NCBI RefSeq assembly: GCF_029633915.1
Contig: NZ_CP091092.1
Coordinates: 558,001-622,000, forward strand
Length of the DNA: 64,000 bases
Direction of reading: 5' to 3'
Source: Methanomicrobium antiquum
Lineage (GTDB): Archaea > Halobacteriota > Methanomicrobia > Methanomicrobiales > Methanomicrobiaceae
Shown here: positions 6,475 to 34,491 of the stretch, one piece after another
Layout: each line of letters begins with the position of its first letter
Numbering within the stretch: the stretch's first letter is position 1
The notes under the pieces: model-generated
Told to the model about the DNA's origin: nothing
Database searches by the model: none
Seen by the model: the letters and a program-made list of their open reading frames with translations, nothing else
Position numbers and translations under genes: made by a program

Positions 6475-8194
6475 CCGACTTTCCGCAGGTATTTCTTCAA
6501 CAATAGTATTTTTCATACTCTCCCCCCAATAACCGCAATATCTTTTTCAATTCATCATTCAGATTTGTAATTCGTTTTATTCTTTTATCACCCTCAACAA
6601 ATGAGAACTCCCTCACCCTCCTGAATCGGAAAAATGTCCATTTCAATGCCGGTCTTTGTGTCTGCTTTTTTGTCTGGCTGGTGACTGTTTCACCAGACTG
6701 TACCAGCATCTTTCTCAGCCGAAACTCAGTCATAGAGTAAATAAAAAGACACAATACCATGATCATAGCCAAAGCCTGAATCCGCGAATTTTTCTTTAAA
6801 TAGACCTCAGCAACCCGGAACGACTTGTCTTTCAGGAACCTAAATCCTCTCTCAACTGTTCCTTGAGCTTTATAATTCCTGAGCAATTCATCCGCAGACA
6901 TCTCAGTGTCATTCGTTGCCAGAACAAAACGTCCAAGATTTTGGCGTTCCTGCTCGACTACGCTGTCATTGTATTCGATATCAGCAGTAATCTTATACGA
7001 ATTAACTAATGGTTCACCGGCTTTTGGCCTACCTCGTTTTTTCTCTTCTTTCCTTTGAATCATGAGAATTTCAAGCTTGCTGAATTGATACTTATGATTC
7101 TTTTCTAACCATTTCTCTGCTTCAATGCGTGCGTCAGGTTCACATGCAAATTCCTGTGCACAGACTTTTCGAAGAGATGTTTTGGCTTTTTCCAGTTCTT
7201 TTACCAGATTCTTATCAAACGTTTTACTCTGTTGTTCATGCATTGGTTCTGAATGATACATCACCCATTTCCGTCTGATTCCTGCATATTCACTGAAAGA
7301 TTCACTATATGAATAGCGATTATCATCGCACGGTATGAACTGACAATCTGATTTGACCAGTTCCTTGGCCTCTTTAATGATAACCGGTACACGACTAATC
7401 CAGAAAGTGTGCTGACCTAAAGTCTGGAGATTTTTTTCGGTATAAAATGCAGCATCAGCTACATGATAGACTTTTTCGCCTGATTTGAGACTTTTCTGAA
7501 GTTTTTCAATAATGATTCGGAGTGTCTCTTTATCCGATTCATTCCCGGAAAAAGTCTGAAGAAATAATGGTACACCATGCTGATTTGATGCCATGCCAAG
7601 GACAAAACGCTTGAGATCCCATCGGCCATCCTTCGGATGGCCGTAGGTAATCTGAATTCCTTCTATGTTGAAATCGGATTCGTATTCGCCGGTTACGCTA
7701 AAGTTAGTGGTATCGACGTGAATGCAATGCGAGCCATATTCTGTTGGAATAAGGCAATTCGCCACGATATCGTTGAATAACTCAGTTGGACCATATTCTG
7801 CAATAGCATCCAGTGTTCTGCCCAATACATCATCATTTATCTGTTCTCGGGAAATTCCCTCCCCAAATAGTCTTTCAACGGCAATATCATCAAAAAATTC
7901 CGGAAACAGATAAAGACGGCGTTCGATGAATCCAAGACCGTTGATCACCATAGCTTTCACGGCCTGAGAATGGGTGAGATTATGGTTTCGGGTCTTGGGT
8001 ATTGCAGTGTCGATCATATTCGCGATACTAAGAGAGTTATAGGCTCCGGCAACGATGCCAAGATGACCAACAGAAAGGATAGATTCGTCATCAAAACCGT
8101 CAATGATGGGCATATTATAGGTTATTCCCTCAAAGTACAAGGATCTTGCGGTCGAATATTGTGAAATGTGTGGATTTTTAGTGCGGATGGTCGG
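6475..8194 (-). mobile_element. IS1634/IS4-like insertion sequence, apparently complete
   Basis: A 1,720-base element. The ends are imperfect inverted repeats: the left end reads CCGACTTTCCGCAGGTATTT and the right end, reverse-complemented, reads CCGACCATCCGCACTAAAAA. It is flanked by a direct repeat ATTAT at 6470-6474 and 8195-8199, as expected for a target duplication. It carries one intact transposase gene on the minus strand and no passenger gene. The undamaged duplication and intact gene suggest a recent insertion. The family name rests on the transposase sequence. Confidence 0.88.
6497..8113 (-). CDS. IS1634-like DDE transposase
   Basis: A transposase of about 538 residues filling the IS. 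It shows the DDE-type core: D-T-T-N near residue 140 (first Asp), V-A-D-A-A (second Asp), and a C-terminal Y-K-A-Q-G-T-V-E-R-G-F-R-F-L-K-D region holding the Glu, which is the typical Y-(2)-R-(3)-E-(6)-K-like signature. The N-terminal helix region with H-L-G-I-V-A-G-A-Y matches the IS1634 group. I prefer the ATG at 8113; an in-frame TTG at 8140 would add nine residues. Its stop codon lies 22 bases inside the left terminal repeat. It catalyses cut-and-paste movement of the element. Confidence 0.9.
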   Translation of the reverse strand: MPIIDGFDDESILSVGHLGIVAGAYNSLSIANMIDTAIPKTRNHNLTHSQAVKAMVINGLGFIERRLYLFPEFFDDIAVERLFGEGISREQINDDVLGRTLDAIAEYGPTELFNDIVANCLIPTEYGSHCIHVDTTNFSVTGEYESDFNIEGIQITYGHPKDGRWDLKRFVLGMASNQHGVPLFLQTFSGNESDKETLRIIIEKLQKSLKSGEKVYHVADAAFYTEKNLQTLGQHTFWISRVPVIIKEAKELVKSDCQFIPCDDNRYSYSESFSEYAGIRRKWVMYHSEPMHEQQSKTFDKNLVKELEKAKTSLRKVCAQEFACEPDARIEAEKWLEKNHKYQFSKLEILMIQRKEEKKRGRPKAGEPLVNSYKITADIEYNDSVVEQERQNLGRFVLATNDTEMSADELLRNYKAQGTVERGFRFLKDKSFRVAEVYLKKNSRIQALAMIMVLCLFIYSMTEFRLRKMLVQSGETVTSQTKKQTQRPALKWTFFRFRRVREFSFVEGDKRIKRITNLNDELKKILRLLGGEYEKYYC

Positions 8195-10264: not shown

Positions 10265-11551
10265 TTATTCCCGAAAATCCTTAACAGCATCAAAGATATA
10301 TTCCAAAATCCACAGGGCACCATCTCCGCCCAAAAATGTTTTTTCTTTGAAATAAATATCGCTGTTTGTTCTGTTGAAAAATTCAACCGATATTTTGCAT
10401 CTGCCTGAAAGACAGAGATCTTTTCCTGTCAGACCTTCACCAAAATAAAATTGCGGCTTTTTATCATATGGATCAGAATTAAAGGCTTCTGCAAAGTTAT
10501 TTGCATAAAGATATTCTTTCAGCCTTTTTGTTGTTTCAAAATCATCTTCGCCTGGCATTACTTCTACAGATACCGGAATCATTCCGAGATATTCGGAAAG
10601 CCAGACTGTCAGGGAAAGAGCAAATGAAGAATCACAGCGAACCGCAAATGTAGCACCCTTCGGATACCCTGCCTCATGGAAATAACGTGAAATTTTATGG
10701 AAAGCAAGTGTTCTTTTCTTTCTTATCTCCTCAAGAGCAGGTGTGGGATCACATCCCGTTTTATCTGCCACCTCTTTAATCCATATTTCTGTTGAAGTAA
10801 ATCCGACAGGTGCGCCGCAATCAGAACAGAATACAGGTATGCCAAACTCTGATTCATAAAATTCCGCAGTTTTTTTGCAGTATTCAGGGAATACGGCTAT
10901 GTTGTAGGATGCTGTTGTTGACTCACGTATCTCAGATACTGATGACCCTGCACCCGGGACACAAACAACGTAAAGACCCATAAGTTCGCAGATATGCTTT
11001 ATTTCAGCGACATTCCCCTGCCAGTATTTCTGGGATATTGAAAATCCCAAAAGATTCACTCGCTTTTTTAATTTAGGAAGACTGTTTAAGCACAGCCATT
11101 TTAGAACTTCTGCTATTGTAGAGTCAAAACCTTCATGAAAGGGTTTTGAATATCCACAGCTTTCAAAAGCCATGCAGATATTATCAAGACCGGCTCCGGC
11201 AAGGAAGCGGTTTAAGTCATCACCGATAAGCGATGCACCGGGAGAGTTTATAACTGCAAGAAAAGCATCTCCTTTCTTTGCAATAAGAGGAAGTATTTCT
11301 TCAAGCTTCTGTGTTGAGCCGTTTATATAATCATCACTTTCAAGATATGTACAGGGTATTCTTGACTGTCCGAAGAAGAAAGGCTCCTCAAAAGAACGTC
11401 TGTTAAGTGAATTCTCCCTTGGGAAATGCTTGTCTGAAAAATAAGCAGGATTTCCCCGGCATCCGTTAGGCCCGTTCATTACAGCACGTGCATCAGAAAT
11501 CCCCTCGATTGCAAGCAATGTACCTATAAATCCGTCAGGATCTGAATTCAT
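10265..11551 (-). CDS. NifK/NifE-like component 1 subunit of a nitrogenase-like reductase
   Basis: A 428-residue protein of the nitrogenase component 1 superfamily. Visible landmarks are G-P-N-G-C-R-G-N (Cys31), R-I-P-C-T-Y (Cys67) followed by Y-I-N-G-S-T-Q-K-L, which replaces the usual F-G-G-x-x-K-L, and I-N-S-P-G-A-S-L-I-G-D-D, where the third cluster-type Cys of the family is absent. The start overlaps the stop of the fused NifH-NifD-like gene by four bases (ATGA), so the two are coupled and probably form a heteromeric complex. Standard F430 synthesis (CfbCD) uses a homodimeric D subunit and has no K partner, so this is a different enzyme. The substrate is unknown. It is the last gene of the operon with a FecBCD-type importer. 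Confidence 0.8.
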   Translation of the reverse strand: MNSDPDGFIGTLLAIEGISDARAVMNGPNGCRGNPAYFSDKHFPRENSLNRRSFEEPFFFGQSRIPCTYLESDDYINGSTQKLEEILPLIAKKGDAFLAVINSPGASLIGDDLNRFLAGAGLDNICMAFESCGYSKPFHEGFDSTIAEVLKWLCLNSLPKLKKRVNLLGFSISQKYWQGNVAEIKHICELMGLYVVCVPGAGSSVSEIRESTTASYNIAVFPEYCKKTAEFYESEFGIPVFCSDCGAPVGFTSTEIWIKEVADKTGCDPTPALEEIRKKRTLAFHKISRYFHEAGYPKGATFAVRCDSSFALSLTVWLSEYLGMIPVSVEVMPGEDDFETTKRLKEYLYANNFAEAFNSDPYDKKPQFYFGEGLTGKDLCLSGRCKISVEFFNRTNSDIYFKEKTFLGGDGALWILEYIFDAVKDFRE

Positions 11552-13725
11552 ATAATTCCCTCCCCGTCACGTTTCCATCCTTCAGAAAGCGGATAGCTTA
11601 TTAATTTGGTCCATCTTTCTGCATGCGCAAGGGCGGCAGAAAAGCCAAATCCCGGACAGTACGGAATGCCTGCACTTTTTACCTTATCAGAAGACTTAAG
11701 CGACGGATAGGTATGCAGAATAAAGTCAGGATTTAATATTTTGATATCATCTGAACGCATCTCAACTGAATAATTTTTTTCAACAGGAAACGGATGACTA
11801 CGGCACGATGGAAGCTCTTCTGAAAAAGGGGAGTATGTAAGTCCGACTTTTAAGATATTCATCCCAAGATCCGATGCAATATCAAATATCCAGTCAACTG
11901 ATTTTGGATACGTTGATATAAGCACATTTTTTCCTTTCAAAACCGGTTTTAATGCATCCACTCTTTTCTGATATTCCTTCTCCTCTTCAGCGATAACTCT
12001 TAAAGCCACATCCTGTCTTTCAAATATTTCCGCAATGGATAATAGCCATTCTTTTGTCTCTCTAAAGCCTGTTGGAAGAGTTTTTTCAAAAAAGGGAACA
12101 TCTGATACTGAAGATATGATTTTTTGTATGTTTTCGGACGTTTCATCTGAATATGCCGGCAGATTTAAAGCAGCCTCATTAAATTTCCTTATTGAATCCA
12201 TATTACTTCTGATAAGAAAACGGCAGTTGACTGAAATATCAAGTTTATTTAGAAGATCTTTTACGGCCTGAATATTATTATCCGCGTTTGAAGCAAGGTA
12301 TTTTTCAGCGATGATATTTACAGACCGGCTCTCCTTTTTACTTACTTCCTTGTTTATAAGGCAGGTTAAGGCCCTGTAAGCGTCCATTTCTCCCTGAGCA
12401 AAATCACCTGTCAGATTACCATCTGTTTCTATCGGAATGATACATATGTCCGGGTTTTTTTCACACACTGAGGAGATTACCTTTTTTATATTATCACCAA
12501 TTATTCCGGGAGGACATGCAGTGATAACAAATATTGTCTTAAATCCCTTATCAATAGAATCTTCAAGAGCATCCTCTAGTTTTTTCTCACCTCCGAATAT
12601 GAAATCATCGTCTGTCATATCTGTTGTTATCATTCGTTGTGGCATACCTCCTGAATACATGTCATTATAACGGGCGGTGGAAGACTGGCTTGTATCAAGC
12701 ATCTTTTCATAGATCATCAGTGCACAGCTTTTCGGGCAGTGCATAACCGTCATAGCATCGGTTATCTGTGCAGTTACAGAGACCGCACCGGCAAAAGCAC
12801 AACCTATGAGCGGCTTTTTGTTTTTGACAGAGTTTGAGATGCATTTTTTCTCCATAACTCTTATTTCTGAAAGCCTGAATTTATCCGCAGGAATTTTCTC
12901 ATTTCTCATCAGAACGGTGTTTTCGAGCTCTTCATCACTCAGCGGCAGTGCCGGATACAAAAAACCTCTTTCTGACTCCAGATTTTTCATATGCTCTGCA
13001 AGTTTGCAGAACAGTCCGGCCTCATCTGAATCAGGGTACTTCTCAATTAAAGTGCATCCGTCTTTTTCCGCATCCGCAAAGATCTCACTTCTAGGCACAC
13101 TTACAATAACCGGAAGTTTTACCGCTTTTGAAAATCTTGCCACACGCTCGTCCTCTTCCAAAAGTCCGCGTGCATTGTAAATTATTCCGGCAACCCTGTT
13201 CTTTGTTTCAGTAAACTGCCTGATTCCTCTGAGAATGTTGTTGGCTGCATAAATGGCCATAAATTCTCCGGATGTTACGATGTATATTGCATCGGCATAT
13301 TCGCGTCTTATGGGAACGCTGAATCCACCGCAGACAACATCTCCCAGGACATCATAAAGGGTTATATCAAAAAGCGATGATTTTATGCCAAGTTCTTCTA
13401 GAAGCTCAAATGTGCTGATAATCCCTCTGCCAGCACAGCCTACTCCGGGCTTAGGCCCTCCTGCCTCGACGCATGCGACATTTCCATAGCCCTTATAAAT
13501 AATATCCTCGGGATTCCTGTCAGCAGGGAGGATATCCCTGATATAATCCAGAGCGGTTACCGGTATTTTCCCTCCAAGAAGAAGCCTTGTTGAATCATGT
13601 TTGGGATCGCATCCTATTTGAAGAACGCTGTGACCATTCTTTGCGAATGCGGCAGATACATTTGCGGAGATTGTGGATTTTCCGATTCCTCCCTTGCCAT
13701 AGACAGCGATTTTAATTGAGATCAT
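11548..13725 (-). CDS. Fused NifH-NifD-like nitrogenase-superfamily protein
   Basis: One 725-residue frame. Residues 1-270 are a full NifH-like reductase: P-loop G-K-G-G-I-G-K-S-T at 10-18 and both [4Fe-4S] ligands at Cys97 (G-V-G-C-A-G-R-G) and Cys132 (D-V-V-C-G-G-F), the same numbers as in Azotobacter NifH, which supports the ATG at 13725 over a TTG at 13761. Residues about 290-725 are NifD-like: Cys309, H-C-P-K-S-C (330, 334), D-D-D-F-I-F-G-G-E-K-K-L at 371-383 and T-A-C-P-P-G-I-I-G-D at 402-411. By family, the H part should deliver electrons with ATP to a metallocluster on the D and K parts. Having H and D on one chain is unusual, because H normally docks reversibly. The start overlaps the ATPase gene by 14 bases. 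Reaction and substrate are not inferable. Confidence 0.85.
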   Translation of the reverse strand: MISIKIAVYGKGGIGKSTISANVSAAFAKNGHSVLQIGCDPKHDSTRLLLGGKIPVTALDYIRDILPADRNPEDIIYKGYGNVACVEAGGPKPGVGCAGRGIISTFELLEELGIKSSLFDITLYDVLGDVVCGGFSVPIRREYADAIYIVTSGEFMAIYAANNILRGIRQFTETKNRVAGIIYNARGLLEEDERVARFSKAVKLPVIVSVPRSEIFADAEKDGCTLIEKYPDSDEAGLFCKLAEHMKNLESERGFLYPALPLSDEELENTVLMRNEKIPADKFRLSEIRVMEKKCISNSVKNKKPLIGCAFAGAVSVTAQITDAMTVMHCPKSCALMIYEKMLDTSQSSTARYNDMYSGGMPQRMITTDMTDDDFIFGGEKKLEDALEDSIDKGFKTIFVITACPPGIIGDNIKKVISSVCEKNPDICIIPIETDGNLTGDFAQGEMDAYRALTCLINKEVSKKESRSVNIIAEKYLASNADNNIQAVKDLLNKLDISVNCRFLIRSNMDSIRKFNEAALNLPAYSDETSENIQKIISSVSDVPFFEKTLPTGFRETKEWLLSIAEIFERQDVALRVIAEEEKEYQKRVDALKPVLKGKNVLISTYPKSVDWIFDIASDLGMNILKVGLTYSPFSEELPSCRSHPFPVEKNYSVEMRSDDIKILNPDFILHTYPSLKSSDKVKSAGIPYCPGFGFSAALAHAERWTKLISYPLSEGWKRDGEGII

Positions 13726-14755
13726 CCCCTGTAGCAGGATATAAATGTGAGATATTTTCAACGAGTTTGCTTATGCTCTCGCACCTGTTCTCACCGCCCG
13801 TATGAGTCAGGAGCCATGCAGGTTTATCCCCGTTCTTTTCAAGAGTCAGGAAAATATCAGATTCGCCACCGTTTGCCGGAGTAAACCCAATCCGCTCAAG
13901 TGCACATAATGTCCAGATGCGTTCGACAGATTCAGCTCCTGTAAAGGTAAAAGTACCTTTTTTCTGTACAGGAATTGTAAATTCCCCCCTTATAGAATCA
14001 AAACTGACACCCTCAATCTCAAAAGCAGAGCCAAAAATTCCGGATAATATCAGATCTTCGGGAACACCTGAGATCATTTTGCCGTTTTTGTCAATTATCC
14101 AGAGCTGATCAGCACAGCGGATTGCCAGATTCAGATCATGGGTTGAGAGAAGAATCGACTTTCCTGTTTTTTGCGCCACATTTCTTAGAATACGCATTGT
14201 TTCAATCTTATGCGGCAGATCCAGAAAGGCTGTTGGCTCATCAAGAACCATCATCTCAGGCTCCTGTGCAAGTGCACGGGCAATCATTACTTTTTGCCGT
14301 TCCCCGTCACTCATTTCATGCATGAAGCGGCGGGTGAGATTTCCTGCACCAACCGACTTTAAAGCAGATGTCACAATCAGGTTGTCTGACTCTGAAAGTC
14401 TCCCTGCCCAGTTAGTATAGGGAAAGCGTCCAAGGGCCACAATATCATAAGCAGTGAGATAGCCTGCCGAAACAGGATTTGTAAGTACAACACTCAGTGT
14501 TTTTGCCTTCTCATCTGAACTATGATCTTCTATTCTTTTATTGCACAGCCAGACTTCCCCATCTATTGCCGGCTGAATTCCGGTAATAGTTCTGATAAGA
14601 GTGGATTTGCCTGAACCGTTAGGACCGATAAGGCATACCAGCTCTCCGCGGTTTAAGGTAAGATTCAGATTTTTTGAAATCTCTTTTGCAGCGGATTTCT
14701 GGCTATTGTATCCTATTGTCAGGTTTTTGCATACAAGAATGGGGCTTTGGTTCAT
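13712..14755 (-). CDS. FecE/BtuD-type ABC transporter ATPase
   Basis: A 347-residue ATPase. Walker A is G-P-N-G-S-G-K-S-T (near residue 45), the signature is M-S-D-G-E-R-Q-K-V-M, Walker B is M-M-V-L-D-E-P-T, and the H-loop is S-T-H-D-L. A tail of about 90 residues beyond the usual ~255-residue length is present (from about residue 245), as in some siderophore/B12 ATPases. The ATG at 14755 has GAGGGG upstream and overlaps the permease stop by ATGA; a longer frame to 14800 is not preferred. It powers the importer formed with the genes at 14752 and 15822, and its 3' end overlaps the nitrogenase-like gene. Confidence 0.9.
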   Translation of the reverse strand: MNQSPILVCKNLTIGYNSQKSAAKEISKNLNLTLNRGELVCLIGPNGSGKSTLIRTITGIQPAIDGEVWLCNKRIEDHSSDEKAKTLSVVLTNPVSAGYLTAYDIVALGRFPYTNWAGRLSESDNLIVTSALKSVGAGNLTRRFMHEMSDGERQKVMIARALAQEPEMMVLDEPTAFLDLPHKIETMRILRNVAQKTGKSILLSTHDLNLAIRCADQLWIIDKNGKMISGVPEDLILSGIFGSAFEIEGVSFDSIRGEFTIPVQKKGTFTFTGAESVERIWTLCALERIGFTPANGGESDIFLTLEKNGDKPAWLLTHTGGENRCESISKLVENISHLYPATGDDLN

Positions 14756-15825
14756 GTTGTAACCCCTCTTCCGAATTTGGTTCCCCTGACAATCACCCAT
14801 ATAACAACCGGTGCTCCGAAAAGGGCGGTTATTGCATTGAGAGGCAATACAATGTCTGTTCCAGGGAAATGCGAGATGATGTCAGTGCAAAGTGAGATAA
14901 TTCCTCCAACAATTATACACGCCGGAACAAGAATACGGTGATCTGCCGTTACAAAAAGGGCTCTGCATAAATGTGGAACAGCAATCCCTAAAAATCCGAC
15001 TGGTCCGCAGAAGGCAGTGACAGCTCCTGCCATTAGAGCTGTGTTTGCAATGATAATGGTTCTTGTTCGTTTGAAATTCATTCCCATACTTTCTGCATAT
15101 TGTTCTCCTAGTAACAATGCGTTTAGAGATTTTACTGAACATAACGAAATCAAAAAACCTGCCATAAGAAGTACTGTCATCACAGGGATTTGTCCCCAGG
15201 TAACACCTGAAAAACTGCCAAATGTCCATGCGGTATAGGAATGCATGCTTGATTCGTCTGAAAATTGCAACAAAATTGTTACGAGGGCACTGCTAATGTA
15301 TGCAACCATTATTCCAAGAATCAATATTGTGATGTTACTTTGAATTTTTGATGAAATTGCAAGAATCAGTGCCAGAACTGCAAAAGATCCACAAATTGCG
15401 GCAACAGAGATGCTTAAATCACCAATGAAACCGAATGTCTGAAATATTACACCAACGCCTGCCGCTCCTGCAGAGAGCATGACAAGAGCAACACCAAGAC
15501 TTGCACCTGAGCTTATACCCAGAATGTATGGATCTGCAAGTGGATTTCTAAAAAAAGTTTGCATTAAAAGACCTGCAAGAGCAAGAGCTCCGCCTGCAAA
15601 TATTGCAGTAATAGCTTTTGGAAGTCTCCAGGCCCAGAAGATGTTTTGCCATGTTTCTTTGACTTCTCCTCCTGTGATTATGTTAAAAAAAGCATCTAAT
15701 GGTATGTTTACTGATCCTGTTAAAAGATCCAGCGTGAAAAGCAATATCAGAACTCCGAAAATCAGCGGAATTAAAAGAATAGTTCTCTTAAAGCTGTCGC
15801 CGGTTTCATCAGCAGAAAGATTCAT
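14752..15825 (-). CDS. FecCD/BtuC-type ABC transporter permease
   Basis: A 357-residue polytopic protein of the FecCD family. It shows the characteristic R-L-P-K-A-I-T-A-I-F-A-G-G-A-L-A segment (residues about 65-80), F-R-N-P-L-A-D-P-Y-I-L-G-I-S-S-G-A and a later G-F-L-G-I-A-V-P-H-L-C-R segment, with about ten membrane spans. This family imports iron-siderophores, haem and cobalamin. Four-base overlaps at both ends (15822-15825 and 14752-14755) place it in a tightly coupled operon with the binding protein and ATPase. The substrate cannot be told from the sequence. Confidence 0.92.
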   Translation of the reverse strand: MNLSADETGDSFKRTILLIPLIFGVLILLFTLDLLTGSVNIPLDAFFNIITGGEVKETWQNIFWAWRLPKAITAIFAGGALALAGLLMQTFFRNPLADPYILGISSGASLGVALVMLSAGAAGVGVIFQTFGFIGDLSISVAAICGSFAVLALILAISSKIQSNITILILGIMVAYISSALVTILLQFSDESSMHSYTAWTFGSFSGVTWGQIPVMTVLLMAGFLISLCSVKSLNALLLGEQYAESMGMNFKRTRTIIIANTALMAGAVTAFCGPVGFLGIAVPHLCRALFVTADHRILVPACIIVGGIISLCTDIISHFPGTDIVLPLNAITALFGAPVVIWVIVRGTKFGRGVTT

Positions 15826-17072
15826 TTAAATCCTCCTGAATTGTTGTCTGCAAGATTTTTGTAATAATAAAGATTATGTCTGTCAAGAAGTCCCGGATGA
15901 AGTATTTCTACAAGATCGGCAAGTATTACGTCAGGATTTAATATTGCGGACTGCCAGTAATCATTACCTCCAAAATCGTTTACTCTTGCATTATAATTAT
16001 AAACATTTCCTGATTTTAATGCTTTAAATTTTGAATAACGGGAATCCATTGCTAAAATATCTTCAATCGAATTGCCTGATCCGGTATTCAGCCAGAAATC
16101 CGCATCATATGCTTTTTCATATATGGATTCAAAATCAAGTGAAATACTTCCTGTTTCAGGCCCTTTTGTGATAATATAATCTCCACCGGCATCTCTGAAT
16201 AATTTTGCAACATAGCTTTCACCGCCTGGTGCATACCATGTACCCTGATAGTCAATTCCGGCAAAAACAGTTGGTTTGTCTGAAATATCTCTTGTTATAT
16301 TGCTAATATGAGTGTAATTATTTTTAATTATCTCAAAGACCTCATTTGCAGTTTCTTCTTTGTTATAAAAATATGCAAAAAATTTTATCCATTCAGCACG
16401 CCCAAGAGGAGTGTTTTCCATCCAGTCAGAAACTATTGCAGGCCTTAGACCTGCTTCTTCGAGTTTACCCCGATTGTCATATTCATCTGTATTACTTGCA
16501 GAACAAAATACTATTTCCGGCTCTAATTCAATCATCTGTTCAATTTTAAGTTGACTTTCCATTGAAAGAGCACCACTTCCGATTTCAGCAAGTGAGCCAT
16601 TTTGAAAGCGCTTTTGAAAATCTTCATCAAAAATTAAATTAATTCCATTGTGTCCTTTAATTGAGGATATTTCTCCTAATTCTTTTATATGTGGGAGTTG
16701 TGTTGTAGAAAGTGTAATTACTGATTCAACCGGGATTGAGACTACTTTGTAATTATCATATCCTTGGGGAATTTCTTCTCCTTTTTGAACAAGGATATAT
16801 TTCAAATCTTTTGCTGTTCTGTCCCAGGGATCTTTTATAGTAACAACTTTGTAGGTATTGTGGTATTCAACAGAGTAGCCTTTGGCATATTCCGGATATG
16901 CCTTGTCTGTGAAAAGATCTTTTGCATCCGGGTTTTCTTCAGGGATTTTTACATTCGAATGACTTTCTTCTGTATTATCAGCAAAAGCAGCAATTCCTGC
17001 TGTAAAAATGACAGCAAGTATCAACACAGCCAAAACAATGTATATTGATTTTATTTTGTATTTCTTAAACAT
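15822..17072 (-). CDS. FecB-like substrate-binding protein of importer A
   Basis: A 416-residue exported protein. Residues about 12-32 are a hydrophobic export/anchor segment ending near A-A-F-A-D. The rest resembles class III (FecB/BtuF) binding proteins: an N-lobe with the I-P-V-E-S-V-I-T-L-S strand, an E-P-E-I-V-F-C strand, a P-T-V-F-A-G-I-D-Y-Q-G strand in the second lobe, and a C-terminal N-P-D-V-I-L-A-D-L-V-E-I-L. It probably captures the ligand outside the membrane. The ATG at 17072 follows a weak GGAAGTGA; a GTG at 17081 is in frame. It is the first gene of the importer/nitrogenase-like operon, 85 bases after the CbiZ gene. Confidence 0.88.
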   Translation of the reverse strand: MFKKYKIKSIYIVLAVLILAVIFTAGIAAFADNTEESHSNVKIPEENPDAKDLFTDKAYPEYAKGYSVEYHNTYKVVTIKDPWDRTAKDLKYILVQKGEEIPQGYDNYKVVSIPVESVITLSTTQLPHIKELGEISSIKGHNGINLIFDEDFQKRFQNGSLAEIGSGALSMESQLKIEQMIELEPEIVFCSASNTDEYDNRGKLEEAGLRPAIVSDWMENTPLGRAEWIKFFAYFYNKEETANEVFEIIKNNYTHISNITRDISDKPTVFAGIDYQGTWYAPGGESYVAKLFRDAGGDYIITKGPETGSISLDFESIYEKAYDADFWLNTGSGNSIEDILAMDSRYSKFKALKSGNVYNYNARVNDFGGNDYWQSAILNPDVILADLVEILHPGLLDRHNLYYYKNLADNNSGGFK

Positions 17073-17157
17073 AACACTCACTTCCGCTGTATTCTCTTTC
17101 CTTTATGCGACTGGTACTGAAACAAAAATGTAATGATTTTAGCCATAAACTAAATCC

Positions 17158-18285
17158 TCAAAAACCGTTTTTTATGCACCAGGAACTAATTCTTATCCAG
17201 TTTTCAATAATAGTCATTTTTTCGTCAATGAGATGTTCAAAATCAGGCTGATTTTTTACAGCTATCATTTCGGGAAGTGTTTTCATAACAGAGTAAGCTG
17301 CAGTTTTTCCTGATTTTTCAGGGATAAGACCCCAGTTTATCTCATCAATAATGTGCAGAAGTGAAGTTGTCATTGCAACCACAGACGGATTTTTTGAAAA
17401 TTCGCGAAGATTTTCTATGAAAACAGGTTTTTTGTTCTCTCCTTCGATTAAAGCCGCAGTCTCCCAGTATTTGTCCTCGTTTATTCCAAATCTGTTAAGT
17501 CTGACAAGCATATCTCTCTGTGTCAGAGGGTTTAAGCAGGTTTGCTTGTCAAGTGCTTCTGTTGTTGCATCAATAATGCAAAGAGCGACAAGTTCGCCAA
17601 GTTTCGAATGTTTTCCTGCCCAGGTCAGAACATTTGGACTACTCATATTTGAGATAACTGATATCTGATCTGTACCTGAACCCGTTGCAATTCCGTTTGA
17701 ATATCTGCTTGGCGCCATAAGCTGCTGTATTGCAACTGTCTTTGCCTCAGTTGCGGTCATTATAACTCGTGTAAGAGCATGTGCAGGCAGATATGAGCTT
17801 AAAATTAAAAAAGTATTGATTGTTCCGCCGACATAAACAGTACTTCCATTCTCTTCATGCCAGTTTGCCGGGTCGCCTGCACGTCCTCCGTTTACTTCTA
17901 TTCCTGCGGTAACTATTGCTGTAACCTCAAGATCCCTGAAAGTTCTTGTGCTTATGGCAGCGTTCTTCATCTTTGCGGCTGTCATCATCGCAGCTGTCTT
18001 TTCAGGATTCAGACCCAGCCTTTTTGACTGGATTTTTATATATTCTTCAACACTTCCACCTTCAAGGTCATGACCGCAGTGACCTCTTGTCGGATTAGGC
18101 TCATGATTAAAAATAGCTTCGAGATTTTCCTGATGGCCGCCGTTTATGTATGATGTTGTAATTGAATTTCTGTTAGGAGGAAGTTTTACGACAACCGAAT
18201 TTTCCGATCTGTAAACTTTTTCTCCACCTGATGTTTCAAAAATCAGTTTAAGGTCTTTTTTTGAGTCTGTTGTATAACTTGTCAA
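17158..18285 (-). CDS. cbiZ: CbiZ-type adenosylcobinamide amidohydrolase
   Basis: A 375-residue protein with the CbiZ landmarks: V-T-A-I-V-T-A-G-I-E-V-N-G-G-R-A-G-D-P-A (residues about 122-141), a G-G-T-I-N-T-F-L-I-L strand and a second-half region with T-A-T-E-A-K-T-V-A-I-Q-Q-L and S-G-T-G-T-D-Q-like (G-S-G-T-D-Q). CbiZ removes the aminopropanol side chain of imported cobinamide so that cobyric acid can re-enter cobamide synthesis. The start is a TTG at 18285 behind AGAGGTG. A truncated homologue of its first ~60 residues lies at 23524-23721. Position beside an importer operon fits corrinoid salvage. The core family call is strong; the substrate is inferred. Confidence 0.85.
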   Translation of the reverse strand: MTSYTTDSKKDLKLIFETSGGEKVYRSENSVVVKLPPNRNSITTSYINGGHQENLEAIFNHEPNPTRGHCGHDLEGGSVEEYIKIQSKRLGLNPEKTAAMMTAAKMKNAAISTRTFRDLEVTAIVTAGIEVNGGRAGDPANWHEENGSTVYVGGTINTFLILSSYLPAHALTRVIMTATEAKTVAIQQLMAPSRYSNGIATGSGTDQISVISNMSSPNVLTWAGKHSKLGELVALCIIDATTEALDKQTCLNPLTQRDMLVRLNRFGINEDKYWETAALIEGENKKPVFIENLREFSKNPSVVAMTTSLLHIIDEINWGLIPEKSGKTAAYSVMKTLPEMIAVKNQPDFEHLIDEKMTIIENWIRISSWCIKNGF

Positions 18286-18471: not shown

Positions 18472-19329
18472 TTATTTTAAAAACCCATGTGATGAAGCTG
18501 CATCTTTAAGTCTTCCGGCAAATATTCCGATTATTTCATCGTATTCACCAAGGGCTTTGTCATCAACAGATACAGCATATCCTTTGGACTCAAGGGCCTT
18601 TTTCCATGAATCCGGATTGGTTTCTCCTGCTATCTCAAGAGATGCATGAATTCCGGAGACTAATGCAAAGGGTGCAAGTCTCACCTTTTTGGCATTCATA
18701 TGCTCCAGACGTCTGGTTATCTTTTCAACTCCCGGATAGCCTCCGACTCCTCCGATAACAACCTTTCCCGACTTACATACATCGTCCATCACCATCTGCA
18801 TCTGACAGAGTGATGTATCAGCGCCGCCTTCGGATGTAGGTGCAACAAGTATGAGGACTTCATCATCAGAGAGTGACTTTCCATAAATTCCGTTGACAGC
18901 CTCTGCAACCTCAAAATAATCCTCAGTCCTCATTAGAAGAGGCCTTGCAACCAAAATTCCGTCAAATCCTATAGCACCATGAGCGCCGGCAAGGTCATTT
19001 AATGAGGAAATTATCCGGTATAATTCATGATAGCCCATTCCTGGTGTGAGATAAATGGGGAGAACTACTATCTGTGAATGTCCTTTATCCAAAAGTTTGG
19101 TCATTGCCGCAAGCGGACCAGATACTTCTTCACCACTTTCTTTTAGAACAAGTCTTACTGCCTCATAATTAAATGAAAATTCAACTTCTGCTTTTGGATA
19201 TGCCTCTCTTGCAAGTTTCATACATTTTTCTACAACTAAACGGCCTTCTTTCCTTGTTGTACCCATTGCAACAACAAGGACTGCACCATGGCTCTCAATT
19301 TTTTTTCCATGTCCTTTCATTAGTATCAT
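18472..19329 (-). CDS. CbiK-family protein (sirohydrochlorin cobaltochelatase-like) with degenerate metal site
   Basis: A 285-residue protein with the CbiK fold pattern: A-V-L-V-V-A-M-G-T-T-R near the N-terminus, a V-V-L-P-I-Y-L-T-P-G-M-G-Y-H-E-L strand-turn, G-G-V-G-G-Y-P-G-V, and A-P-F-A-L-V-S-G-I-H-A. In CbiK enzymes two His and one Glu bind the metal (the M-G-H-G His, the V-E-S-Y-P Glu and the G-D-H-A His). Here the first position reads A-P-T-S, the second reads V-G-G-Y-P, and only the last His is kept. It may therefore not insert cobalt, or may act with another partner. It sits upstream of the CbiZ gene. The alignment is from memory of the family, so the missing-residue statement deserves a structural check. 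Confidence 0.7.
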   Translation of the reverse strand: MILMKGHGKKIESHGAVLVVAMGTTRKEGRLVVEKCMKLAREAYPKAEVEFSFNYEAVRLVLKESGEEVSGPLAAMTKLLDKGHSQIVVLPIYLTPGMGYHELYRIISSLNDLAGAHGAIGFDGILVARPLLMRTEDYFEVAEAVNGIYGKSLSDDEVLILVAPTSEGGADTSLCQMQMVMDDVCKSGKVVIGGVGGYPGVEKITRRLEHMNAKKVRLAPFALVSGIHASLEIAGETNPDSWKKALESKGYAVSVDDKALGEYDEIIGIFAGRLKDAASSHGFLK

Positions 19330-19569: not shown

Positions 19570-20571
19570 CTATAGATGAATCTGGTTTTCTTTTCTGGAT
19601 GCTTTTATCTGTTTTCTGAGCGAATTTTCTAATTCCTGTCCTGTTTTTGTCTGAAGTTCATGTGTCAGAAATTCAGGCCTGATATAATCGATGATTTCTC
19701 TGCATTTTTCAGACGAAAATGGCCGGTGTTCATCAACACTTCTCAAATGATCAATAATCAGGCAGTATTTTTCATTAAAAGAAATATCTGAATACTTTTC
19801 CGGTTCATTTGTATTTTTCTGATAATCACCGGAAGTGCTTAACTGGAGGTGCATTCCGTTGATATTTTTAATTATTTCAGAATCAAGCTTTTCAAGACAC
19901 TCTATTATAGTGTCTATTGACTTTTCCTCATCATTGCACTCTTGTGTTGCATTCATGAGATGCCCTGTGTCAAGAAGAAATTTCCATCTTTTAAATTCAA
20001 GATTGTCCATAAATTCAAGAGTTAAATCTGAATCCAGAAATTTAAGCCCAGGATACCAGAGATTTTCAATATATATATCAAATGGAGGTTCTCCTCCTGG
20101 AAATGAAGATGCAGTTTCATTTAATAATTCTGCAGTTGCATATAGAATTTCTCTGTCAGAATACAACTGCTCTTTTGAAAATGCAGACTCCACTTCTGTA
20201 AATGTTGCATGAAACACTCCATATGCCGGATTTAATTCTTTGGCGCAGGATAAGCATTCACAGAAATTAGAAACGATTTCATCATGGCTTTTTCCCCCAT
20301 AAAAATATTTTATAGAATTGTCTTCAATCTGTTTTGGAATTTTAAATGCTTCATCCTTCCAGATTCTCATCCAGCTCATAAAAGAAGGGAGATGGACTGC
20401 CTTTACAATTTCGTTTGGGATTTTTTCCGGTACAGGATCAAAATTTACTAAAAGTTCAAGACCATCAAGACCAAGGTTTTTTATGAGGCTCCTGACATTT
20501 TCAAAGCTGCCTCCAAATTTATCTAAATCAAAATCATATATTGAAAAATTCATCAGTTCTTTAGGATTCAT
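19570..20571 (-). CDS. Xylose-isomerase-like TIM-barrel protein
   Basis: A 333-residue protein resembling the sugar phosphate isomerase/epimerase (AP endonuclease 2) barrel family. Supporting segments are L-G-L-D-G-L-E-L-L-V-N-F (strand 1-2), V-F-H-A-T-F-T-E-V-E (metal-site-type His and Glu), I-Y-I-E-N-L-W-Y-P-G, F-L-L-D-T-G-H-L-M and G-M-H-L-Q-L-S. The E-N-L-W, D-T-G-H and H-L-Q strands are placed like the metal-binding strands of the family. Its start overlaps the ChlD-like gene stop by four bases, so it is the third gene of the chelatase operon. Specific substrate unknown. Confidence 0.72.
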   Translation of the reverse strand: MNPKELMNFSIYDFDLDKFGGSFENVRSLIKNLGLDGLELLVNFDPVPEKIPNEIVKAVHLPSFMSWMRIWKDEAFKIPKQIEDNSIKYFYGGKSHDEIVSNFCECLSCAKELNPAYGVFHATFTEVESAFSKEQLYSDREILYATAELLNETASSFPGGEPPFDIYIENLWYPGLKFLDSDLTLEFMDNLEFKRWKFLLDTGHLMNATQECNDEEKSIDTIIECLEKLDSEIIKNINGMHLQLSTSGDYQKNTNEPEKYSDISFNEKYCLIIDHLRSVDEHRPFSSEKCREIIDYIRPEFLTHELQTKTGQELENSLRKQIKASRKENQIHL

Positions 20572-22490
20572 TGTGGTATCTGCCTGTATACTGCTTCTTT
20601 AACTGAATTTGCAAGTTTTGCCTTGTCAAGAGAATCGATGTAAAAATATGTTGCTTCAAGTTCGAATGCAAGGTTCTTTGCCAGGCCTATCCTTGGAAAT
20701 CCTTCTTCTGTATCAATAACAACAAAATTAATATTTTCTTTTGATGCTAATCTGGCAGTTTCGATAAGTTCTTCATATGGTTTTTTAACTGACTCTGAAA
20801 CATTAACTCTGCCATCTGTAAGAATAATTACTGCTCTGGATTCTCCTTTTTTTGAGTAGCATCCCTGTGCCATAAGTTTTACTGCTTCAGTAATTCCTTT
20901 GGAAAGAGGTGTTTTGCCTCCGGTTGGCATCTCTTTTAGCATTTTGTAGGCAAGATCTGTGCTTTTTGTAGGGGGAAGAAGAAGAGTTGCCTCTTTTTTC
21001 CTGAAAATCATAAGGCCAACCAGATCCCTTTTTTGATAGGCATCATTAAGAAGTGATAAAATTGCCCCTTTAACAGAAACCATTCTCTTGCCTGCGCCCA
21101 TCGAACCGCTTGCATCCACCAGAAACAGAATTGTGTTGCCGGTTTTTCTTTCCCTCACCTTCTCACGCAGATCACTTTTTTTAACATTGATTGCAAGTCC
21201 GTTCTTTGTCCTGAATCTCTGAAATGGTGCGGCGGCTCTTATTGAAGGGCAGATTGCTATGTCATTTCTTTTTTTGTTGAGATTTTTATAGGAGATGTAG
21301 CGTCCACTGTTATTATAACTGATAATGCTGCTTCTGTTACCGCTTTTATCCTGTTTTGACTTTTTGACCGACTTTTCATTCAGATAATCTATGACTTCAA
21401 ATACGGAACCTATGGTAAATACCTGCTCTGAATGGGGGATATCATGGTTTGAATTATTATCGTCCTGTTCCTCATTTTTTTCATCTTCGCTTTGAATATC
21501 AATATTTGTATCTGGACTTCCCGTCGGCTTTTTATCCGGACTATTGTCCTGGTTTTCATCTTTGCTGTTATCTTCATCGTTGCCTTTTTCTTCATTTTGG
21601 TCTTTGGATTGGTTTTTGGGACTATCATTTTGAGGCGGAGGATTTCTCCTTCTGTGCTGAAGAGTGATGAGCGCTGCCTCTTTGATATCATCAAAGACAA
21701 CATTATCTCTCCCGTCTATCGCTGCCAGAGTTTTCGAAACCTTTGCAAGTGCGATATCCCCTCTTTGTCCGGAAACATTCATTTCAAGGCATAATTCTGA
21801 CATTATCTCCAAAAGTGCCTCGGGAATCATCACATAGGAAAGCCTCTCCTTTGCTTTTTCAATATTATCTTTTATTTTTGCAATGTCTGATTGAAATTTC
21901 AGAGTGAATTTATCCGGGTCTTTCTCAAACTCAAGGCAGTTTCTGATTATCTTTGTTCTTTCTGCCTCATCTTTGATAACATCAGTATCAATACAAAGAT
22001 CAAACCTGTCAAGCATTTGTGGTGACAGTTCGCCTTCTTCAGAGTCCATTGTTGCCGCAAAAATAAATCTTGTCTTAGTAATTTCAGAAAAACCTTCACG
22101 CTCTATTATCAGGTTTTTAGTTTCAGACGTACTAAGTATCCCGTGGACAATATTTTCATCAAGCAGATTTATGTCATCTGCAATAACCATCTGCCGGTTG
22201 TACTCGGCTAAAATCCCTTTGGTTATTCCGATATCTCCTCGAGTTACTGCTTTTTCAATATCAATAGAACCCAAAAGTCTATCTTCCGTGGTATTTAGAG
22301 GAACTATCCCTACTTTTTTATCTTCAAGAATAGTTTTCGCAGATCTTAAAAGGACAGATTTGGCCGAACCTCTTGTGCCGGTAACTAGCAACCCGTTGAT
22401 ATCTTCATTTATGATTATGCATAACAATGCTTTTTTGGCAATACTGTTTCCGATAATTGCAGGGAAAGGGTATGGCTTATAGTCTGTCAA
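20568..22490 (-). CDS. ChlD-like chelatase subunit (AAA+ domain plus VWA domain)
   Basis: A 640-residue protein. The AAA+ part (residues about 5-300) has a P-loop G-T-R-G-S-A-K-S and a Walker-B-like [10 protein letters not shown], close to Mg/Co-chelatase I subunits. A linker of about 70 residues rich in Asn, Asp, Glu and Lys follows (about 290-365). The C-terminal VWA domain has a complete MIDAS start, V-D-A-S-G-S-M-G (D-x-S-x-S), and the later T-P-L-S-K-G and T-D-G-R segments. With the ChlI-like subunit encoded just upstream it should form the ATPase motor of a CobN/ChlH-type chelatase. Unlike its neighbour and the fused gene at 34492 it lacks the four-Cys insertion. ATGA overlaps occur at both ends. 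Confidence 0.85.
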
Positions 22491-23527
22491 TTTTTATAAC
22501 TCTCCAGAATTAATGACTCGACTTTGTCAAATTCAAGCCTGGCCTCTTCAAAGGGAAGTTTTCTCATCCTGTGCGGCAGTGCAAGCCCTGCTGCCTTTAT
22601 CAGATCATTTCCCTCGACATTATTTCTCTCATCAAGTGCTGCAAATGCGCATGCAGTTTTGACAAGAGTAAGATCTGATCTGTGGCCGTCCACATTTAAA
22701 AGAAGGGAGATTTTAACAGCCGTGTTCAGCAGAAGATCATCGGGTTTTATTTCTAATATTATTTTTTTGGCTGTTTCAATTTTATCCCTCAAATTTTGTT
22801 GAAGAGGTTTATATTTATCACAGAATTCATGTGGATTTTTCTCAAATTCCAAACGTCTTTTTACAATCTCTATCCTTTTTTCTGTATTTTTCTCACCTTC
22901 AACATTAACAGAAAGGCCGAACCTGTCAAGAAGCTGGGGACGAAGGTCGCCTTCCTCGGGATTCATTGTCCCGACAAGCATGAATCTGGATGGATGAGAA
23001 TATGAAATTCCTTCTCTTTCAACAAAATTTGTACCCATTGCGGCCGCATCAAGCAGGAGATCCACAATATGATCATCAAGGAGATTAACTTCGTCAACAT
23101 AGAGAATATTACCGTTGGCTGCTGCAAGAACGCCTGGCTCAAACTTTTTTTCACCCTTGGTAATTGCCTCTTCAATGTCAAGTGTGCCTGCAACACGATC
23201 CTCTGTGGCACTTAATGGCAGTTCTACAACACGCATTTTTATATCTTCATATTCGGGAGTCTTTCCTGATTCTGTTAATATCCTGCATGATGGGCAAAGA
23301 TATCTCTTCTGCCCGGCTTCGCAGTGAAAGATGCAGTCTTTTATAGTTTTTCTCTCAGGCAGAAGATCAGCTACTGCTCTCACAGCAGTTGATTTTGCCG
23401 TTCCTTTCTCACCTTTTATAAGAACGCCGCCTATTGACGGGTTTACCACATTTGAAAGAAGAGCATCTTTCATATCTTCCTGCCCTACTATTGCGGAGAA
23501 GGGATATGCCGGATTATCGTCACTCAT
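22487..23527 (-). CDS. ChlI-like chelatase AAA+ subunit with four-Cys insertion
   Basis: A 346-residue AAA+ ATPase of the magnesium/cobalt chelatase I family. The P-loop is [10 protein letters not shown], Walker B is [12 protein letters not shown] and the sensor region is [17 protein letters not shown]. Between the P-loop and Walker B is a short insertion with four Cys (C-I-F-H-C and C-P-S-C), which probably binds a metal. Subunit I hydrolyses ATP to drive metal insertion by the large subunit (CobN at 30663 is the only candidate in the window). It begins with ATGA overlapping the stop of a small CbiZ-like fragment and ends overlapping the ChlD-like gene. Confidence 0.88.
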
Positions 23528-27505: not shown

Positions 27506-28756
27506 ATGGTATATAAAAAGACTGTTTTAATTATTCTCCTTTTTTCAGCCGCAATCCTACTAATAAATCCGGCATATGCAGGTACACAGAGCAATTCAGA
27601 AACTCTGCCTCTCGATAAAAACAATGATCTGATTATAACCTCAGACGAACTTGCGCCTGAAATCCTCTCATACTTAACAGAAAAATATCTCAATGGGAAT
27701 ACAGACATTCAGCCAACAACCGATCTCTCCGATGCAACATATATCTACGCCAACTGGAACGGAAAACCAAAAAATGTTCAGGATTTCAAAGGTCAGGCAG
27801 TAACACTCTACAGGCCGTTTAAAAAAGTGGCTGTTTTAAACGGCGAAACACTTGAAACAATGAGATCGCTTGGATTTGATGAAAGTAAAGTATCAGGTGT
27901 CGGAAAATATACACTTGAAGATAAAGTCTTCTTCCCGGAGTATTCTAATAAAGCAAACATAGGTTCGGTCTGGTCGCCTGATTATGAAAAAATAATCTCC
28001 ATTTCGCCTGATGCAGTATTCATCTACGCAGATTTCATGGAGGACAAATCAGATGAAATCCAGGAGAAAATCCAGTCGATGAATCCGAAAATAAAAATAT
28101 TCAGATTTGATCTCTATAATCCTTCAACCTACCTTGAAGAAACAAGGCTTCTTGCAGGTGTGATTGACAAAGAAAACAATGCAGAAACCCTTACTTATTT
28201 CTATTCCGAGCAGACAGATCTCATAAATTCTGTAATCTCCGGCATTCCAAAAGAGAAGCAAACACAGATTTATTTTGAAAGCTGGGATGACTACAAGAGT
28301 GTTGCAAACGGCTCGGGATACAATGAAAAAATAAACCTTGCAGGCGGAGTAAGCATATTTGAAGATGCAACACCTGAATATCCGGTTGTAAATCCTGAAG
28401 AAATTCTCATTAAAAATCCGGATGTTGTTGTAAAGTTAATAGGGTCAGGAAAACTTGCTTTTGGCGGATATGAGGATTCAGATACTGCAAAAGTAAAAGA
28501 AGTCTATCAGGCCATGACATCCCGCACCGGCTGGCAGAATCTTGACGCTGTAAAAGAAAACCGTGTTCATATTCTCAGTAATGACATTTTTGGAGGACCT
28601 GAATACATACTTGGGACTCTTTACCTTTCAAAATGGCTGTACCCTGATGAATTCAAAAATATTGAACCTGAAGAAATTCACCAGAGATACATATCACAGT
28701 TTCAAAACCTTGACTTTGATGTAAAAAAAGACGGTATTTTTGCTTATCCATTATAA
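27506..28756 (+). CDS. FecB-like substrate-binding protein of importer B, with EF-hand-like loop
   Basis: A 416-residue exported binding protein. Signal peptide residues about 1-26 (ending P-A-Y-A). Residues about 37-48 form a perfect EF-hand-type loop D-K-N-N-D-L-I-I-T-S-D-E (Asp1, Asn3, Asp5, Thr9, Glu12), a dockerin-like element not usual in FecB proteins. The rest has class III binding-protein strands including P-D-A-V-F-I-Y-A-D, N-P-D-V-V-V-K-L-I and E-N-R-V-H-I-L-S. GGAGG precedes the ATG. It precedes the permease, ATPase and CobN genes. Its ligand may be a tetrapyrrole or metal chelate (inference). Confidence 0.85.
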   Translation: MVYKKTVLIILLFSAAILLINPAYAGTQSNSETLPLDKNNDLIITSDELAPEILSYLTEKYLNGNTDIQPTTDLSDATYIYANWNGKPKNVQDFKGQAVTLYRPFKKVAVLNGETLETMRSLGFDESKVSGVGKYTLEDKVFFPEYSNKANIGSVWSPDYEKIISISPDAVFIYADFMEDKSDEIQEKIQSMNPKIKIFRFDLYNPSTYLEETRLLAGVIDKENNAETLTYFYSEQTDLINSVISGIPKEKQTQIYFESWDDYKSVANGSGYNEKINLAGGVSIFEDATPEYPVVNPEEILIKNPDVVVKLIGSGKLAFGGYEDSDTAKVKEVYQAMTSRTGWQNLDAVKENRVHILSNDIFGGPEYILGTLYLSKWLYPDEFKNIEPEEIHQRYISQFQNLDFDVKKDGIFAYPL

Positions 28757-28790
28757 TAACAATAATTTTTGCTTTTAAATGAGGCGACAG

Positions 28791-29882
28791 ATGACACTTG
28801 ATTCAAAAAAATTTCATGCACAGTGCAGGAAAATAAAGGCAAAAAACAGGACATTCTTCATAGGCTTAACCCTTCTTTTAATTCTTTTAACCGGCATCGG
28901 AGTAACTCTCGGCTCAGCAGAAATTTCAATTCTGCAGTCCTATCAGGCGCTTTTTTCCGGACTTTCAGAAAGAGTCTGTGTATTTTTCTTCGGCGCTGAA
29001 CAGGGTTCACAGTCAATGACGGAGATTGTCATCTGGGATATCAGACTTCACCGGGTGTTGTTTGCAATCGCCGCCGGATTCGGGCTTGCAATTGCAGGAA
29101 CAGTTATGCAAGGGATATTGAGAAACCCGCTTGCAAGTCCTTTTACACTTGGAATTTCCTCAGCCGCATCCTGTGGTGCATCGGTTGCGATAATACTTTT
29201 TGGAGGATTTGCACTCCTTTCAGGCAGTATTACAACTATGATTCTTGCATTTTTATTTGCAATGCTTGCGGCATTTGGAATTTACTTAATGGCACGCCAC
29301 AAGGGGCTTTCGTCATCGGCGATGATTTTGGCAGGAATTGCCCTGATGTATCTTTTTTCTGCTGTGACCTCACTTTTACAGTATTTCGGGTCCGCTGATC
29401 AGGCAGCAGCGGTTGTCTACTGGATGTTTGGATCGCTTGACAACACAACATGGTTAAACCTCGGAATAGTCTTTCTTGTTCTTCTAATAATAGTCCCGTA
29501 TCTTCTCCTGAAGGCATGGGATTTAAACGCACTTTCTGAAGGATCTGAAGTTGCAAAATCAATAGGTGTCCCGGTTGAGCGTGAAATGACAATTTTCATG
29601 TTTATTGCATCACTGATAACTGCTGTTATAATCTCATTTACCGGAACTATCGGTTTTATAGGGCTTGTTGCACCGCATATTGCAAGAATGGTTACAGGAA
29701 GCGACAATCGGATATTAATTCCGGCATCAGGATTTATGGGCGCTGCAATCCTTCTTGGTGCTGACTGTTTAAGCAGAACAATAATATATCCTTCTGTAAT
29801 TCCGGTTGGAATCATGACTGCTTTCCTTGGTGTTCCGTTCTTTTTGTATTTATTCCTAAGAAGAGGTGATACGGGATGGTAG
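28791..29882 (+). CDS. FecCD/BtuC-type ABC transporter permease of importer B
   Basis: A 363-residue polytopic protein of the FecCD family, with L-R-N-P-L-A-S-P-F-T-L-G-I-S-S-A-A and G-F-I-G-L-V-A-P-H-I-A-R-M segments and about ten spans. The ATG at 28791 is preferred because GAGG sits six bases upstream; an in-frame ATG at 28779 is inside that site. It overlaps the ATPase gene by seven bases. It is clearly related to but distinct from the permease of importer A. Confidence 0.9.
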   Translation: MTLDSKKFHAQCRKIKAKNRTFFIGLTLLLILLTGIGVTLGSAEISILQSYQALFSGLSERVCVFFFGAEQGSQSMTEIVIWDIRLHRVLFAIAAGFGLAIAGTVMQGILRNPLASPFTLGISSAASCGASVAIILFGGFALLSGSITTMILAFLFAMLAAFGIYLMARHKGLSSSAMILAGIALMYLFSAVTSLLQYFGSADQAAAVVYWMFGSLDNTTWLNLGIVFLVLLIIVPYLLLKAWDLNALSEGSEVAKSIGVPVEREMTIFMFIASLITAVIISFTGTIGFIGLVAPHIARMVTGSDNRILIPASGFMGAAILLGADCLSRTIIYPSVIPVGIMTAFLGVPFFLYLFLRRGDTGW

Positions 29883-34367: not shown

Positions 34368-34491
34368 CCAGATTACAATGCACGAATATTACTAATGCCC
34401 CTAAATTGTAATACTTTTTTTTAAATTCAGATTATAATAGTAATAATAAAAAATAAAAACTTAATACGTCAATACCTCATATGATAATATA

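Follow-up and report, generated by a model that had tools for sequence, protein, structure and literature searches.

A nitrogenase-like H-D fusion with a K partner beside a BtuFCD-type importer: a candidate corrinoid reductase in Methanomicrobium antiquum and other anaerobes

Fusions of nifH-like and nifE-like genes, followed by nifN-like genes, have been on record since 2012, when a single sentence marked 'data not shown' placed them in Archaea, Firmicutes and Deltaproteobacteria (Dos Santos et al. 2012, PMC3464626). The same paper omits these fusions from its tree, notes ABC transporters adjoining other nitrogenase-like genes, and suggests coupling to metal transport for related loci. Among corrinoid systems, operon-2 of Dehalobacter encodes FepBCD/BtuCD, two CbiZ proteins, CobN and chelatase subunits, and is induced 346-fold by corrinoid starvation (PMC4285132). 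Mar, another member of the nitrogenase superfamily, carries nitrogenase-type P-clusters and an [Fe8S9C] cluster (PMC12552129). Here we describe a fusion locus in a window of 64,000 nucleotides from Methanomicrobium antiquum (contig NZ_CP091092.1, positions 558,001 to 622,000), to which all coordinates refer unless another locus is named.

Five minus-strand ORFs at 10265-17081, each overlapping the next, encode an importer binding protein, a FecCD permease, an ATPase, a NifH-NifD fusion and a NifK-like subunit (the last two together are called HD-K below). Pfam domains follow in the same order: Peripla_BP_2, FecCD, ABC_tran, Fer4_NifH plus Oxidored_nitro in one ORF, and Oxidored_nitro. ORFs and domains thus confirm the head-to-tail array of a preliminary description of this DNA. 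The binding protein lies at 15822..17081 and the permease at 14752..15825, with BtuC as its top NCBIfam model, below cut-off. The FecE/BtuD-like ATPase (PF00005) occupies 13712..14755 from ATG 14755, within ORF 13712-14800, and all its scores against the NCBIfam FecE, heme and corrinoid ATPase models are below cut-off. The fusion (11548..13716, ORF 11548-13761) carries PF00142 (Fer4_NifH, residues 17-282) and PF00148 (Oxidored_nitro, residues 321-721) in a single ORF, an arrangement conserved across 49 aligned fusions; the H part plus linker spans 12844..13716 and the D part 11551..12843. The K-like subunit, of 428 aa, follows at 10265..11551 (PF00148, 145.7 bits).

Upstream of the importer, also on the minus strand, lie genes for a CbiZ-type adenosylcobinamide amidohydrolase (17158..18285; PF01955, 187.7 bits), a CbiK-like class II chelatase (18472..19329; PF06180, 145.2 bits), a weakly CbiR-like TIM-barrel protein (19570..20571; 22.8 bits against an NCBIfam CbiR cut-off of 105, and below both curated cut-offs), a ChlD-like chelatase subunit (20568..22490; TIGR02442 at 569 bits, under the cut-off of 779) and a ChlI-like subunit (22487..23527), the last named by similarity alone, with orthologues in relatives that adjoin ChlD. 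On the far side of K a transposase-like ORF lies at 6497-8140, where relatives carry divergent CobN and ABC-2-like genes; these partner genes may have been displaced in the window. A second cluster, at 27506-36549, holds a FecCD permease, an ATPase, a CobN-like gene (1234 aa) and ChlI/ChlD-like genes, and this CobN-like protein is only about 31% identical to the HD-K-adjacent CobN of relatives.

Gene overlaps had been given as 4, 4, 14 and 4 bases. On the nucleotide sequence the three overlaps of 4 stand (binding protein/permease, permease/ATPase and HD/K), while the 14 between ATPase and HD applies only if HD starts at ATG 13725, giving 725 aa. By comparison with relatives the start is probably ATT at 13716, giving 722 aa, where the minus-strand ATTAA at 13712..13716 shares one base with the ATPase TAA stop. 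The HD start codon appears to be ATT in 10 of 11 importer-linked Methanomicrobiales loci (among them the window, L045, L047-L050, L103, L106 and L109) and TTG in the remaining one, with a Shine-Dalgarno-like stretch upstream; three such loci have no ATG, GTG or TTG near the HD start. The ATT frequently overlaps the ATPase stop as ATTAA or ATTAG. The Methanosarcina orthologues L095 and L099 may start at ATA. Relatives whose HD has no ATG led us to consider a programmed frameshift between ATPase and HD; an ATT start is the likelier explanation, as the L046 ATPase terminates earlier and the aligned column there holds a TTG.

Searches recovered the same fusion from 8 of 150 genomes of the order Methanomicrobiales, from 17 Methanosarcinaceae loci, and from most of the 58 archaeal and bacterial loci L101-L158, normally with the K gene next. 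Its recurrence in so many genomes rules out misassembly or chance, and contradicts the assembly error joining two genes for which the preliminary description had allowed. Exceptions within L101-L158 are L127, L157, L128 (where the ORF caller saw none) and contigs ending inside genes. L127, a Firmicutes MAG, has separate H and D ORFs, and in L157 the fusion is in pieces; a true split and a sequencing error are both possible. The 48 other fusions aligned come from Methanomicrobiales, Methanosarcinaceae, Methanomassiliicoccales, Clostridia, Desulfobacterales, Chloroflexales and spirochaetes. One Methanomassiliicoccales genome holds, besides the main fusion, another, divergent one that is accompanied by its own K gene and by an ABC ATPase (L254, 1576-5415). 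The contig L138, labelled Bacteroidetes, bears a Methanospirillum-like HD-K cluster, and that assignment is probably a binning error.

Fer4_NifH and Oxidored_nitro scores above the curated cut-offs, the P-loop and the Fe-protein cysteines place HD-K in the nitrogenase superfamily. Scores against the NifD and NifK models, far below cut-off, set it apart from true nitrogenases, and the same holds for CfbD (38.3 bits against a cut-off of 268.4) and, by sequence, for DPOR/COR (66 bits against 490 for BchB, with separate clades from one long-branched Bch set). For the H part the best NCBIfam model is CfbC, at 319.6 bits and below the cut-off of 402. In unrooted trees, with Mar sequences left out and Bch represented by few, long-branched rows, H domains from 26 fusions group together in a single clade (95/95), and the fusion D parts (98/94) and the K parts (100/99) do likewise; CfbD, Nif and Bch sequences all lie outside these clades, and CfbD forms its own (100/100). 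The proposal that the fusion is something other than CfbC/CfbD is therefore borne out, D and K nowhere grouping within CfbD and the cfb genes being present separately: canonical cfbB-C-D-E accompanies the fusion in the genome of a relative that we take to be Methanosarcina acetivorans C2A (chromosome of 5,751,492 bases), and M. antiquum has separate CfbC and CfbD besides its own fusion.

Two other nitrogenase-like sets occur in the M. antiquum genome. At L051 (7118-10092; G000:C1 near 335-338 kb) the CfbC-scoring gene adjoins not cfbD but an uncharacterised nitrogenase-like pair, D51 and K51; D51, short and unfused, is sister to the fusion D parts (100/99). The nif-like HDK set at L052 (3510-7325; G000:C1 near 465-469 kb) falls well short of the NifD/NifK cut-offs and has long branches in the trees, which marks its D and K as something other than standard nitrogenase subunits.

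The H part had been thought to keep its P-loop and both cluster cysteines (numbered 97 and 132 there, C94 and C129 from the ATT), and the D part to have conserved cysteines of its own; all of these are invariant in the 49 fusions, the D residues being C306, C331 and C401. Among K proteins the only strictly invariant cysteine is C31 (48-row alignment). The D cysteines align with NifD C62, C88 and C154 and with the cluster ligands of BchY and BchN, and K C31 aligns with the BchZ cysteine or the BchB aspartate. Three D cysteines and one K cysteine match, as a pattern, the ligands of the single [4Fe-4S] cluster of DPOR/COR, and equal those of BchY/BchZ, so that one such cluster is predicted here. 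The FeMo-cofactor cysteine is missing from the D part, NifD C225 (fragment numbering, M. acetivorans row) aligning with Y/Y/N. In K, two P-cluster positions are occupied by D and P, and two of the three NifK/NifN-type cysteines are gone. An AF2 model of K (pLDDT 88.8) matches the fold of DPOR BchB best, then nitrogenase beta chains, with close E-values.

The H-D linker, at about residues 269-295 (12832..12912), is poorly conserved, with low model confidence around 280-290; across fusions its length is highly variable, and in Methanosarcina it is of low complexity. The fusion had been called mechanistically odd. H and D are indeed covalently joined, but a variable, partly low-complexity linker offers a plausible answer, since it could let a tethered H dock and undock; in an (HD)2K2 assembly the fused H domains would form one H dimer able to dock on either half.

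Neighbouring genes were named by BLAST to the window proteins or by Pfam, after mechanical ORF calling. A search for the same fusion with importer neighbours recovered importer-linked loci in Methanomicrobiales: all seven others have importer-HD-K with CbiZ upstream and ChlD, mostly also ChlI, and in most of these seven stretches a divergent CobN is present together with an ABC-2-like pair; the presence of CbiR-like and CbiK-like genes varies. Several Methanosarcinaceae retain the importer, CbiZ or CbiK. Against a corrinoid reading, HD-K in Methanosarcina has no importer and no corrinoid genes adjoining. In Methanomassiliicoccales, CobD/CbiB, an aminotransferase and CbiZ stand beside HD-K, and in L158, from a genome of that order, the sequence is CobA-HD-K, with CobA 13 bp upstream of HD by ORF coordinates. 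The spirochaete locus L144 has an operon hemB-hemL-(CbiE/CbiT-like region)-cbiA-cbiD-HD-K-(two tetrapyrrole-methylase-like ORFs)-cbiG-aminotransferase-cbiP-cobA-cbiC. L141 reads CobN-CobN-ChlID-HD-K; HD-K is preceded by BtuCD-like genes in L125 and L146, by an ATPase in L151 and by a CbiR-like gene in L116. In some bacteria it lies near ECF-type/DUF4430 genes or a TonB receptor, and in L124 (Syntrophomonas) a ZnuA-type importer follows it.

Rfam profiles detected 13 cobalamin riboswitches and one AdoCbl-II riboswitch in 10 of 30 bacterial HD-K loci and no cobalamin riboswitch in seven NifE control loci, a comparison between loci that are not phylogenetically independent and a small control. 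The other 20 bacterial loci have no riboswitch within the stretch examined. In L134 about 140 bp separate the end of the riboswitch (7748) from the HD start (near 7888), too little for another gene, so the riboswitch is directly upstream of HD. Riboswitches also precede CbiR-HD-K (L116), a TonB receptor and HD-K (L120), and a same-strand gene run ending in HD-K (L140); in the remaining riboswitch loci they are downstream or on the opposite strand.

Translational coupling to an importer had been taken to imply that the imported compound (a tetrapyrrole, corrinoid or metal chelate) is substrate or cofactor source. Gene context and riboswitches favour the corrinoid among these three, but the argument from coupling is weaker than it was put there, since pairing with this importer is one of several arrangements. 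With a BtuFCD-type importer, CbiZ and B12-responsive regulation in relatives, the locus has the features of corrinoid salvage, although no Rfam family, and hence no riboswitch, was found in the window itself. Of the 36 HD-K genomes reached through named loci, 10 (several of them possibly incomplete MAGs) yielded no CbiC, the protein taken to mark de novo corrin synthesis; this fits a role on salvaged corrinoids.

Our preferred reading of these sequences, to which we give a probability of about 0.6, is that HD-K would reduce corrinoids for B12 salvage, as an ATP-dependent enzyme of the DPOR/COR kind with a [4Fe-4S] cluster. That it acts on some corrinoid we consider likely. The domains, invariant cluster ligands, separate clades, gene context and riboswitches were observed directly, and from there we infer the ATPase activity, cluster, substrate and reaction. 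The importer would bring in a corrinoid, whose side chain CbiZ, and perhaps the CbiR-like protein, would trim. HD-K would then work as a two-component reductase: the H domain, powered by ATP and supplied by a low-potential donor such as ferredoxin, would pass single electrons to the one [4Fe-4S] cluster, which three D cysteines and one K cysteine would bind, and on to a corrinoid at the interface of D and K, while the flexible linker would tether H to the catalytic half. Our first choice for the step itself, a tentative one, is reduction of Co(II) to Co(I), perhaps readying the corrinoid for adenosylation or lower-ligand remodelling. Against it, known DPOR, COR and CfbCD enzymes act on the macrocycle and not the metal, and Co(I) is made in other organisms without such an enzyme. 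Adenosyltransferase families are common, not universal, among HD-K genomes; neither CobA- nor PduO-type was found in the well-covered genomes G112 and G263, which makes a universal link between HD-K and adenosylation doubtful.

Rather less probable is that the step is a reduction of the corrin ring or its side chain, in which case HD-K might reduce a C=C bond or side chain, perhaps to mend or modify corrinoids that have been imported. Every characterised relative that shares the 3+1 cluster pattern has a tetrapyrrole ring as its substrate, HD-K agrees with DPOR/COR in alignment and fold, and in L144 it is part of a corrin-ring operon, where it follows CbiD and precedes later genes. HD-K is not, however, a stand-in for CbiJ (precorrin-6A reductase), and it occurs also where CbiC was not found. 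Replacement of CbiJ was rejected since CbiJ is present in 21 of the 36 HD-K genomes, that of L144 included, and is missing from Methanomicrobiales and Methanosarcinaceae alike with and without HD-K.

We hold it unlikely that the step is demetallation or metal exchange, HD-K acting with the CobN/ChlI/ChlD and CbiK chelatases to scavenge Co or Ni or to dispose of analogues with the wrong metal. Chelatase genes are found together with HD-K in Methanomicrobiales, some Methanosarcinaceae and L141, but many HD-K loci have none nearby, and iron was still removed from heme by a BtuS double mutant. We know of no enzymatic removal of cobalt from corrins. A bolder possibility, somewhat speculative, is a nitrogenase-family machine for B12-type corrinoids, widespread in anaerobes, that would bring the corrin ring to an undescribed form, or strip or swap its cobalt with CobN/ChlI/ChlD.

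It is more doubtful still that HD-K is a NifEN-like scaffold making or inserting a metal cluster, with the importer supplying metal. The D part scores well against NifE, L124 has its ZnuA-type importer, and the metal-transport suggestion made for related loci by Dos Santos et al. (PMC3464626) would agree; but K without two of the three NifK/NifN-type cysteines and D without the FeMo-cofactor cysteine argue against it, and corrinoid genes and riboswitches are the commoner neighbours. A role in F430 metabolism, by salvage or modification of imported F430, has a methanogen host and the best, sub-cut-off CfbC match of the H part in its favour, but is very improbable, and in the F430 pathway is rejected, given trees that keep D and K apart from CfbD, separate canonical cfb genes, and the spread of the family, with cobalamin riboswitches, through non-methanogenic bacteria.

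If HD-K is a corrinoid reductase, the nitrogenase superfamily gains a corrinoid branch beside those for chlorophyll (DPOR, COR), F430 (CfbCD), sulfur (Mar) and nitrogen, and methanogens, clostridia and spirochaetes gain a candidate for an anaerobic corrinoid reductase, whose natural covalent H-D fusion could be used to study electron gating. Fused nifH sequences of this kind are also a warning against counting them as nitrogen fixation genes.

The nifH-nifE-like fusion of Dos Santos et al. (PMC3464626) is very probably the same family as HD-K, and the sentence given to it draws no corrinoid or riboswitch link, unlike the reading here; the literature searched yielded no paper linking fused nitrogenase-like genes to corrinoids or B12. 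Dehalobacter corrinoid operon-2 resembles the HD-K neighbourhood in its importer, CbiZ, CobN and chelatase subunits, whereas the main text on it mentions no nitrogenase-like gene (PMC4285132). Among proteins of solved structure, the K profile matches the sequence of MarK (9d9u_C) best (1.1e-28), but HD-K lacks the ligands for the P-cluster and [Fe8S9C], K being without P-cluster cysteines. The D51/K51 pair beside cfbC in Methanomicrobiales differs in that D51 is shorter than the fusion D and unfused, and its H neighbour scores as CfbC. With CfbCD of F430 biosynthesis HD-K shares the tetrapyrrole-reducing part of the superfamily and the best H-part score, but CfbD works without a K partner and from a separate gene, whereas HD-K has a K and fuses H to D. 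COR (BchXYZ) and DPOR (BchLNB) share with HD-K the make-up of H plus D/K-type proteins, one [4Fe-4S] site of three D-type residues and one K-type residue, and the K fold; long branches separate them from it, H and D are fused only in HD-K, and their context is chlorophyll where that of HD-K is corrinoid.
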